Part shown: in pieces, positions 4,213 to 6,095 of the stretch
Numbering within the stretch: the stretch's first letter is position 1
Layout of the letters: each line of letters starts with the position of its first letter
Virus record (IMG/VR): IMGVR_UViG_3300029787_000069
Location: 1 to 40,970 of that record
Direction: 5' to 3' (one strand)
Source of the DNA: a virus
DNA length: 40,970 nt
Translations under genes and position numbers: made by a program
Notes under the pieces: generated by a model
Told to the model about the DNA's origin: nothing
Databases searched by the model: none
What the model saw: the letters and a program-made list of their open reading frames with translations, nothing else

Positions 4213-4241
4213 TTGACAGATAAATAGTTAGGTATTATAAT
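4213..4241 (+). promoter_or_regulatory. consensus sigma70-type promoter for gene 32
   Basis: TTGACA at 4213-4218 and TATAAT at 4236-4241 are both perfect and separated by 17 bp, the optimum for host sigma70-type RNA polymerase. Initiation would fall near 4248, giving a leader of about 235 nt before gene 32. This is the best host-type promoter in the window. Confidence 0.88.
4220..4226 (+). promoter_or_regulatory. late-promoter-like ATAAATA inside the gene 32 promoter
   Basis: ATAAATA lies between the -35 and -10 of the sigma70-type promoter. If used by the phage late sigma factor, initiation would fall near 4233, so gene 32 could be expressed both early and late. The motif is short and A+T-rich, so chance is possible. 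Confidence 0.45.
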
Positions 4242-4243
4242 AG

Positions 4244-4430
4244 AAATGTTGGACGCAACATGGGAGTGACTGAATAAACTTACTGGCAACCGCTGGTTAA
4301 GGTGATGAGACACAGGTGGTGCTGCTGCAGCGATGCAGAACCGACCTACCAGTCGGGTCTCAGGCAAGGACGTTTTTACACTGTAGTAATGCTCGTTCTT
4401 TGTTGGTACACAGGAACCCAACCTCCCTCT
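4244..4430 (+). ncRNA. structured 5' leader RNA of gene 32 (candidate cis-regulatory element)
   Basis: This stretch has no credible gene and is more G+C-rich than its surroundings. Visible helices: ATGTTG/CAACAT (4246-4251/4256-4261, tetraloop GACG), AGTGA/TTACT (4265-4269/4280-4284, one G-T pair), AACC/GGTT (4288-4291/4295-4298), GAGAC/GTCTC (4307-4311/4357-4361), CCGAC/GTCGG (4341-4345/4352-4356), CTGC/GCAG (4322-4325/4335-4338) and GTTGG/CCAAC further down. The loop at 4346-4351 (CTACCA) could pair with upstream GG-rich bases (4282-4286 or 4315-4320), giving a pseudoknot. It lies wholly between promoter and gene 32. It may be an autoregulatory leader or a riboswitch-like element such as those described from marine phages (manA, wcaG classes). 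No class is assigned. Confidence 0.62.
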
Positions 4431-4450
4431 TTAATGCAACAAAATAAAAT

Positions 4451-4474
4451 CCAATTAATCCAATTAATCCGAGG
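4451..4474 (+). promoter_or_regulatory. tandem A/T-rich repeat and ribosome binding site of gene 32
   Basis: Two perfect copies of CCAATTAAT (4451-4468) sit directly before the Shine-Dalgarno GAGG (4471-4474), which is 8 bases upstream of the ATG. The region from 4430 is unstructured and A/U-rich. In T4, gp32 represses its own mRNA by binding such unstructured repeats next to a pseudoknot, so this is a plausible operator. That is inference by analogy. Confidence 0.5.
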
Positions 4475-4482
4475 TATCCAAA

Positions 4483-5400
4483 ATGTCGTTTGCTAATCTA
4501 AAAAAGCAATCTAAATTAGGTTCTCTTACTCAAAAGTTAGTAAAAGAAGTTGAAAAAATGAATAATACAGGCGGTAGTGCTGATGACCGTTTGTGGAAAC
4601 TAGATGTTGATAAAAGCGGAAACGGTTACGCTGTAATTCGTTTTTTACCTGCTCCTAATAATGAAGATCTACCATTTGTAAAGCTATATTCACATGCTTT
4701 CCAAGGACCTGGTGGATGGTATATTGAAAATTCACTTACCACACTAGGACAAAAAGATCCAGTATCTGAGTACAATACTCAACTCTGGAACAATGGTACA
4801 GATGCAGGAAAAGAAACAGCACGTAAACAGAAACGTAAATTAACTTATGTTTCAAACATCTATGTCGTCAAAGATCCAGCAAATCCTGAGAATGAAGGAC
4901 AAGTATTTTTATATAAGTATGGTAAAAAAATATTTGATAAACTTACCGCAGCAATGCAACCTGAGTTTGAAGATGAGGAAGCAATCGATCCATTCGATTT
5001 CTGGCAAGGTGCGAACTTTAAGTTGAAGGCAAAGAATGTCGCTGGTTATAGAAACTACGATAGTTCTGAGTTTGCTGCACAAAGTCCATTACTTGATGAT
5101 GATGACGCTTTAGAAGGTTTATGGAAAAAAGAATTTTCTCTCGCAGAATTGGTCGGAAATGATCAATTTAAATCATATGATGAACTTAAGAAACGTCTTG
5201 AGTCTGTGCTTCGTGTTTCAAGTCCTGTAAAACATGCAGAAGACTTTGAACTAGAAGATGAAAGTGAAGGACGTGGTTCTTTTAGATCTAATACTAGAGA
5301 GTATGTACAAGAATCTAAACCAGAACCAGTTTCTGTAAGTAGTTCTGTAAATGAAGATGATGAAGCATTATCTTACTTTGCGAAACTGGCAGAAGAATAA
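4483..5400 (+). CDS. 32: single-stranded DNA-binding protein gp32
   Basis: Gp32 coats ssDNA during replication, recombination and repair. The 305 residues align with T4 gp32 in order: an N-terminal basic segment (cooperativity), GNGYAVIRFLP, GGWYIENSLTTLG, RKQKRKLTYVSNIYVVKDPANPENEGQVFLYKYGKKIFDK (OB fold), ANFKLKAKNVAGYRNYDSSEF, and an acidic C-terminal tail rich in Glu and Asp that should bind partner proteins. The zinc-binding Cys residues of T4 gp32 are absent; there is no Cys in the protein at all. It is a single-gene unit with its own promoter, structured leader and terminator. Confidence 0.97.
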   Translation: MSFANLKKQSKLGSLTQKLVKEVEKMNNTGGSADDRLWKLDVDKSGNGYAVIRFLPAPNNEDLPFVKLYSHAFQGPGGWYIENSLTTLGQKDPVSEYNTQLWNNGTDAGKETARKQKRKLTYVSNIYVVKDPANPENEGQVFLYKYGKKIFDKLTAAMQPEFEDEEAIDPFDFWQGANFKLKAKNVAGYRNYDSSEFAAQSPLLDDDDALEGLWKKEFSLAELVGNDQFKSYDELKKRLESVLRVSSPVKHAEDFELEDESEGRGSFRSNTREYVQESKPEPVSVSSSVNEDDEALSYFAKLAEE

Positions 5401-5407
5401 TTTTTTA

Positions 5408-5431
5408 GGGGGTTTCAAACCCCCTTTTTTT
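5408..5431 (+). terminator. rho-independent terminator after gene 32
   Basis: GGGGG (5408-5412) and CCCCC (5420-5424) form a stem around a TTTCAAA loop, extended by T-A pairs, and are followed by seven T. The opposite strand lacks a U-run, so it stops + strand transcription only. The U-run reaches the stop codon of the convergent gene 53. Confidence 0.9.
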
Positions 5432-6095
5432 ATGGCAATGTGATTGATGTATTTTCTGTTTCAATCATGTTGTCATTAATAAATTGTGAGGAATTATCAT
5501 ATACCATAAGATCTCGAAAGTCATTTAAGAACTGTTGTAGGAATTCTGGTTTAAGAACAAAAATATTTCTTTTCTTATCATTTAATAATGTCTCATATTC
5601 ATAATATGAAACTGCGGTTCTAGCCTCAGAACCAGATTTTGTAACGTTAATTGATAAACCAGTATCATAGAAAGTTATTGAAAAATCAGGATCAACAACA
5701 TTATCTTTTGCCATTATTAATTTTCCTTTACTATCTTTAATCTCTCTTGTGACCCAATATTTTGGATTATTTAAATCTGTACCATGTTTGTCAAGAGAAT
5801 AATCATAAATGTCTTTACTTGATAGTGGCCATTGATTTCGTACATTTGTAATTCCCGCTGAAATTAAAACAACCCAATCTAATTCATCACTTCCATATAA
5901 TCCTTCAGCAACTGTATCTGGTCTCAGACCTTCTGGTATTTCAAATTTATCAAATAAAGTAAAAATACTTTTAAAATCATCTCTAAGTTTAATTCTGCGA
6001 AATAAATTTTTTGTTTCGACAAACTCAAGGGATGAATTTTTGTCGGGCAAAAAAGAAGGATAACGCATATTTGGTAGTTCTCTGAAATATCCCAT
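5430..6095 (-). CDS. 53: baseplate wedge protein gp53
   Basis: A 221-residue protein with the gp53 signature region RPDTVAEGLYGSDELDWVVLISAGITN...QWPLS, comparable with T4 gp53 (RPEELANAIYGNPQLYWVLLMCN...GWITS). A C-terminal YEYETLLNDKKRNIFVLKPEFLQQFLNDFRDLM helix pair matches the T4 end (YEAAVLENEKLRQIKII...NSFMNDLIRIM). Gp53 joins wedges at the baseplate. The start overlaps the stop of gene 48 by one base (TAATG), so the two are coupled. It is convergent with gene 32, with a terminator filling the gap. Confidence 0.87.
   Translation of the reverse strand: MGYFRELPNMRYPSFLPDKNSSLEFVETKNLFRRIKLRDDFKSIFTLFDKFEIPEGLRPDTVAEGLYGSDELDWVVLISAGITNVRNQWPLSSKDIYDYSLDKHGTDLNNPKYWVTREIKDSKGKLIMAKDNVVDPDFSITFYDTGLSINVTKSGSEARTAVSYYEYETLLNDKKRNIFVLKPEFLQQFLNDFRDLMVYDNSSQFINDNMIETENTSITLP

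Follow-up and report, generated by a model that had tools for sequence, protein, structure and literature searches.

Which RNA stands before gene 32 in this phage, and does it serve the gene that follows or is it a product in its own right? The question arises from a 40,970-nucleotide stretch of viral DNA (IMG/VR record IMGVR_UViG_3300029787_000069; hereafter the window), in which an earlier note, made from the sequence alone, had recognized a structured leader upstream of gene 32. It was proposed to be a new regulatory RNA, either an expanded operator for autoregulation by the gene 32 product (gp32) or a metabolite or stress sensor.

A complete manA RNA upstream of gene 32

A cmscan comparison of the window with Rfam 15, the check that the earlier note had suggested, returned a single match, to the manA family (RF01745), at 4247–4432 on the + strand, scoring 184.2 bits (gathering score, 55.2 bits) with an E-value of 6.3e-50. 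The match spans all model positions, 1–192, and the same RNA scores 202 bits with the covariance model R1 described below. Positions 4247–4432 (+) are a complete manA RNA, a member of a known family of unknown function; given this full-length match the RNA family is not new, manA having been named at first merely as an analogy. The RNA shares with those described by Weinberg et al. (2010; PMC2864571) the same helices, the marine T4-like cyanophage context and a position 5′ of a gene, but its downstream gene, gp32, is not named in the accessible portion of that main text. The same portion presents manA as a riboswitch candidate annotated as cis-regulatory (PMC2864571), and Rfam gives RF01745 the type Cis-reg. 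The wcaG RNA (RF01761) is likewise an orphan RNA of marine cyanophages with a proposed cis role; it had no match in the window in the Rfam scan, the manA loci scanned gave no match to any other Rfam family, and nothing was found on the reverse strand of the leader. The locus is laid out as follows:

4213–4241, + strand: sigma-70 promoter TTGACA-N17-TATAAT, 12 of 12 consensus positions
4219–4226, + strand: GATAAATA, T4-late-promoter-like motif in the promoter spacer (motif match; putative late activity)
4247–4432, + strand: manA RNA, RF01745, full length (covariance-model match)
4433–4482, + strand: A/U-rich gp32 proximal leader with AAUCC repeats, without manA structure and common to manA-less gp32 leaders
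4471–4474, + strand: Shine-Dalgarno (SD) sequence GAGG of gp32 (from the sequence)
4483–5400, + strand: gene 32, ssDNA-binding protein of 305 aa (Pfam PF08804, 159 bits)
5407–5432, + strand: intrinsic terminator behind gp32 (terminator search)

No terminator was found between manA and gp32 in the window. From the consensus promoter on its 5′ side and the lack of a terminator before gp32, manA in this phage is predicted to be part of the gp32 mRNA leader; the original claim of a structured RNA in that leader is borne out, with manA sitting between promoter and gene 32. Such a potential 5′ UTR position is found in the window and, across the manA family, at part of the loci. AAUCC/AAUCU repeats are abundant in gp32 leaders with or without manA (window 4440–4482 and the leaders of L001–L080); at 2.4 per 45 nt in manA-less leaders versus 0.19 in shuffled sequences, they constitute a candidate gp32 operator.

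RNA structure and covariation

The covariance model R1 was built from an alignment of 32 manA RNAs (A1); alignment A6 came from a search of 100 sources. In A6, which was fitted to the nested structure and hence leans towards nested pairs, loop–loop contacts being outside that model, 93% of cells pair, double-sided changes occur in 41 of 62 pairs, and the covariation score is 0.317, compared with 0.113 after shuffling and no more than 0.062 with slid partners. The structure lies far beyond chance because the model match has E = 6e-50 and these pairs change in a compensatory manner; the compensatory changes sought in related phages are thus present. The elements, all on the + strand, are:

4247–4260, + strand: 5′ hairpin TGTTG-GACG-CAACA (loop GACG), located where transcription is expected to start, about 6 nt downstream of the −10 box
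4262–4266/4423–4427, + strand: closing helix GGGAG/CUCCC, 99.8% paired in 100 sequences
4282–4297, + strand: hairpin ACUGGC-aacc-GCUGGU (alignment A6)
4306–4362, + strand: multibranch arm UGAGAC/GUCUCA, enclosing hairpins 4313–4324, 4325–4338 and 4341–4356
4317–4320/4348–4351, + strand: loop UGGU with ACCA, the pseudoknot proposed earlier (complementarity)
4366–4400, + strand: stem AAGGACG/CGUUCUU, all 7 outer pairs covarying
4376–4389, + strand: inner hairpin of that stem, weakly supported in A6
4381–4385/4409–4413, + strand: loop CUGUA with the loop of the last hairpin (covariation)
4402–4422, + strand: last hairpin GUUGG...CCAAC, carrying the partner loop 4409–4413

All helices that the earlier note had listed are present in the sequence and belong to the manA consensus, including GAGAC/GTCTC (4307–4311/4357–4361) and CCGAC/GTCGG (4341–4345/4352–4356), whose 3′ strands are adjacent (4352–4361). 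The closing helix has compensatory variants GGGUG/CACCC and AGGAG/CUCCU among the 100 sequences and is an ordinary closing helix; its interpretation as a pseudoknot was rejected. Nearly every pair of the multibranch arm shows compensatory changes in A6. Within the loop at 4346–4351 (CUACCA), ACCA is able to pair with UGGU as had been suggested; this contact is essentially invariant in the 100 sequences, and covariation therefore speaks neither for nor against it. The second loop–loop helix does covary and is new relative to the nested structure line of Rfam. In the window, CUGU pairs with ACAG but A4385 does not pair with C4409, and relatives carry CUGU/ACAG, AUGU/ACAU, GAGU/ACUC or CUUU/GAAG. 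This helix and a frequent 3′ terminator domain fall outside the nested structure of RF01745. Weinberg et al. placed a "pseudoknot?" label in manA, which in the accessible part of that report may refer to either loop contact (PMC2864571).

Thermodynamic folding of the whole leader gave no stability above that of shuffled sequence (z = −0.05), and the minimum-energy fold omits much of the covariation-supported structure; folding energy, which yields the wrong helices, was rejected as evidence for structure. No conserved protein is encoded in the feature, whose open reading frames are short and mechanical. Elsewhere, "hypothetical proteins" have been annotated over manA (L203 2477–2653, L208 2556–2730, L211 2505–2711 and L296 2625–2816); such short entries in the P-HM1, P-HM2, S-SSM5 and S-TIM4 records are probably misannotations.

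Genes adjoining manA

The sample comprised the best 80 gp32 relatives listed, at least 120 contigs with a manA core 16-mer, and phage isolates found by BLAST. Among the matches listed, gp32 (54–96% identical) lies directly downstream of manA at 25 of 104 loci, the window included, and is its commonest single neighbour, although selection by an exact 16-mer and the use of listed matches mean that neighbour fractions are not population frequencies. The isolate P-HM2 has manA directly before gp32, as in the window. In other phages manA precedes talC, thyX, purS, hsp20, tRNAs or a terminator; some neighbours recur (talC, thyX, hsp20 and a phosphomannomutase-like gene), in agreement with the accessible part of Weinberg et al. 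(PMC2864571). The RNA stands directly before a gene, with no recognized terminator, tRNA or late promoter in between, at the 25 gp32 loci and at 25 of 77 others among the matches listed. Genes for tRNAs (Gly, Asn, Asp) follow manA at L332 (1501–1771), L117, L082, L102, L151, L186 and L197, and in S-SSM7 the first base of the tRNA is also the final base matched to manA.

One of the 80 nearest gp32 relatives listed has manA, and most keep a similar promoter and proximal leader; together with the many other downstream genes, this is not the pattern of a conserved element specific to gp32 leaders. The expanded autoregulatory operator first proposed gains no support, since talC, thyX, purS, hsp20, tRNAs or a terminator follow the same RNA in other phages and most gp32 relatives listed lack it; a gp32-specific operator was rejected on the family's other downstream genes.

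In phage T4, a pseudoknot in the gene 32 leader nucleates gp32 binding for autoregulation. Both leaders place a structured element and then an A/U-rich stretch before gene 32, but manA is much larger, is not gp32-specific and is also found before other genes, tRNAs and terminators, and most cyanophage gp32 leaders listed lack it. By analogy, manA might nonetheless act as a 5′ stabilizer or a gp32 operator, its hairpin and fold protecting the mRNA from 5′-end-dependent decay and/or nucleating gp32 binding, with autoregulation along the A/U linker. We consider this improbable: the start of manA with a hairpin at the expected transcription start, the 50-nt A/U-rich stretch with AAUCC repeats behind it and the rank of gp32 among its neighbours (25/104 among the matches listed) would all suit such a role, yet a comparable A/U-rich leader that lacks manA is present in most gp32 relatives listed, terminators and tRNAs are likewise found behind manA, and a stabilizer would need neither a single copy nor such strong loop conservation.

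Copy number, location and hosts

A search of whole records with RF01745 found exactly one manA in every record with a match, including 16 complete cyanophage genomes, and the RNA occupies differing places; that each phage genome holds a single copy is a new observation, and as a rule it is suggestive, the 16 genomes representing few independent lineages. In these isolates manA lies behind gp23 (P-HM1, MED4-213, P-RSM4, S-TIM4, MbCM1, S-SSM5) or pstS (P-SSM3, P-SSM4, S-SSM4), or before gp32 (P-HM2), talC (P-RSM6, P-TIM40), purS (P-SSM2), a carbamoyltransferase gene (P-SSM7) or tRNA-Gly (S-SSM7). PMC3037559 compared 16 genomes, half of which (eight) contain one manA while the other eight lack it; manA is present in 6/6 of those with P- names and 2/10 of the others (naming per PMC3037559).

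Among 200 Prochlorococcus genomes searched, manA was found in one only, on a contig that also bears phage gp23, and a host origin of manA was rejected on this ground. A pattern scan of GTDB gave two full-length manA RNAs, one on the same phage-gp23 contig and one on a short metagenome contig. The single-cell Prochlorococcus genome AG-418-C09 contains a 189-kb contig with phage gp23 and manA (L251, contig C3 of G016), and probably represents an infected cell.

A single copy at a variable place, with a strong promoter and a structured transcript, would also be compatible with a role at the DNA level, such as an origin of replication primed by transcription, with the transcript remaining at the DNA. 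This is pure analogy and, in our judgement, highly improbable, as many cyanophages lack manA (8/16 genomes of the PMC3037559 set) and a terminator right behind manA would be unexpected for a primer.

Promoters and terminators of manA loci

Among the matches listed, a sigma-70 promoter of their own, matching at least 10 of 12 consensus positions, is present at 96 of the 98 manA loci for which upstream sequence is available, and 91 reach at least 11, a score attained by 0.3% of shuffles. The position of these promoters would put the transcription start at the first hairpin of manA, a new observation at the level of predicted elements. The terminator of the preceding gene (GAGGGTGCTTGACACCCTCTTTTTTTATGCTATAAT) contains the −35 TTGACA in its loop or stem at L105, L097, L088, L184 and L333, and a compact terminator–promoter overlap is seen upstream of many manA RNAs. 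The T4-late-like motif NTAAATA occurs upstream of manA at 18 of 21 gp32-linked loci listed, versus 1.9 to 2.8 expected; after manA and before the next gene, it occurs at 23 of 77 other loci listed (3.5 expected) and at 0/25 for gp32. Sigma-70 boxes and NTAAATA are combined in gp32-linked promoters (window 4219–4226, L134, L163, L084, L111), suggestive of transcription of gp32 plus manA at early as well as late times.

Many manA RNAs are followed within 5–20 nt by a hairpin, GACCUAAGAUGCA-(hairpin)-GGGCAGAUGGUC, so that a terminator of their own, absent from the window, is frequent. The hairpin, whose interior is conserved in L163, L109, L096, L125, L352 and about 55 more loci, may resemble a k-turn. 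It is not covered by the Rfam manA model and would serve as a terminator when a U-tract follows. That tract has 6–9 T of 9 in 37/37 distinct copies listed from contexts other than gp32 or tRNA, 2–5 T of 9 in 15/15 copies listed before gp32, and 2–4 T of 9 in 7/7 copies listed before a tRNA-Gly-like sequence; the classes do not overlap (p = 4e-10, a value that overstates independence since the copies are related). The tract thus appears to be intact elsewhere and broken before gp32 and tRNA, which is a new observation. The window has no such hairpin, and the sequence after its manA (TTTAATGCAACAAAATAAAA) resembles the post-hairpin sequence in L396 (TTTAATACAACAAAACAAAT), as would be expected after a deletion of the hairpin. 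The domain was rejected as an independent element: almost all real newly found copies lie directly behind a manA match, the exceptions being two unrelated sequences and one copy at a contig edge.

Comparisons between related phages

The co-isolated phages P-HM1 and P-HM2 are highly syntenic (PMC3037559), and each holds one manA, as a separate unit behind gp23 in the former and in the gp32 leader in the latter, which is likewise a new observation. Behind gp23, P-HM1 has a promoter, manA and a terminator (AACCTCG...CGAGGTTTTTT), whereas manA is absent from P-HM2 and the CACTAAATAATRTTACAGGAGG signals of the following gene (late-promoter-like) are unchanged. At gp32, the promoter (TTGTCA...TATAATAAATAGT) and leader (ATACGAGGAATAC) are common to both; P-HM2 has manA where P-HM1 has about 25 nt, with promoter and ribosome-binding site unchanged. 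The window gives a similar picture against P-SSM2, AG-345-L05 and L001, the promoter and leader (ATTAATCCGAGG) occurring in all and manA between them in the window only. On a gp32 tree of 109 rows the presence of manA needs 9 changes, at least 5 of them forced by well-supported branches, which points to repeated gain or loss of manA at the gp32 position. In AG-345-D19, where manA lies beside gp32, a terminator-like hairpin comes after manA and gp32 possesses a separate promoter.

These arrangements bear on the reading under which the family was named, in which manA, as a riboswitch-like leader, would sense a metabolite or the state of infection and switch gp32 and other genes in cis through termination or translation. 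We regard it as unlikely, though it keeps appreciable weight because half of the sampled loci are leader-like and the family is annotated in this way (riboswitch candidate in PMC2864571; Cis-reg in Rfam). The compact, strongly covarying structure, its position directly upstream of gp32, talC and others, and the terminators near many copies would agree with it. On the other hand, one copy per genome stands before unrelated genes, joint manA–tRNA transcripts are predicted, the gp32 SD and leader are common to manA-less relatives, and in P-HM1/P-HM2 the manA–terminator unit comes or goes while the late-promoter-like motif of the next gene is unchanged; the presence of manA in just one of 200 Prochlorococcus genomes, one with a phage contig, likewise speaks against it. 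No conserved expression platform connects the RNA to a terminator or SD: the window has no terminator between manA and gp32, an SD-like motif occurs in 10/22 manA-linked gp32 leaders among the matches listed, and the U-tract is broken before gp32. An SD/anti-SD switch (CUCCC with gp32 GAGG) was rejected as a general mechanism, on that 10/22 count and on the same SD in manA-less leaders. Of the sensor first proposed for gp32, then, the simple cis-switch is argued against by single copy, shifting location, own promoter and frequent terminator, and sensing itself survives as a lesser contender.

Discussion

The explanation that we favour, with slightly better than even confidence, is that manA is a single-copy phage RNA gene, probably trans-acting and here co-transcribed with gp32. 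The fuller version, in which manA is not cis-regulatory and is instead a mobile, single-copy, trans-acting RNA gene of Prochlorococcus-type T4-like phages, repeatedly fused into gp32 or tRNA units via terminator loss, we hold to be an evenly balanced proposition. Relative to RF01745, the evidence favours a free-standing RNA over the cis-regulatory label.

Under the RNA-gene explanation, transcription would start at the manA 5′ hairpin from the strong sigma-70 promoter, the transcript would fold into a compact multibranched RNA with two loop–loop contacts, and in many phages it would end at its own terminator. The RNA itself would probably be the product, acting in trans during infection, with a target likely in the host, since manA is common in Prochlorococcus phages and was not found in Prochlorococcus chromosomes. 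The unit would move within phage genomes while being kept at one copy; where it joins gp32 or a tRNA, its terminator would be disabled and the neighbour still transcribed. In the window, the gp32 mRNA would carry manA as a 5′ segment of about 185 nt, possibly removed by cleavage within the A/U-rich linker, and manA–tRNA fusions would fit release of manA by RNase P. In its favour are the RF01745 match and covariation, the single copy at differing neighbours, the reciprocal presence and absence of manA in P-HM1 and P-HM2, the promoters at 96 of 98 loci listed, the U-tract pattern, the repeated gain or loss at gp32 and the one manA, on a contig with phage gp23, among 200 Prochlorococcus genomes. 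The predicted transcription of some manA RNAs into a tRNA, abutting in S-SSM7, also counts for an RNA gene because a translational switch cannot regulate a tRNA. Against it weigh the position of about half of the sampled manA RNAs directly before a gene, as expected for a 5′ UTR element; the partly repeating neighbours (talC, thyX, hsp20, phosphomannomutase-like); the fact that a terminator beside a structured RNA may also be a riboswitch platform; and the small phylogenetic breadth of the 16 single-copy genomes.

GOLLD and ROOL are large, ornate noncoding RNAs of phages or bacteria. Like them, manA as an RNA gene would be independent, elaborately folded, phage-encoded and sometimes found beside tRNAs, but it is far smaller, lies at times within mRNA leaders, and has no Rfam match to either family here.

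The listing of manA as a likely riboswitch dates from 2010, and our literature search found neither a ligand nor a function. If manA is a free-standing phage RNA, ligand searches would be the wrong experiment. P-HM1, in which manA forms a separate unit, and P-HM2, with manA in the gp32 leader, both infect Prochlorococcus MED4 and make the question directly testable. If the RNA-gene explanation is true, an abundant group of marine phages carries an uncharacterized RNA with a possible action on the most numerous photosynthetic organism.
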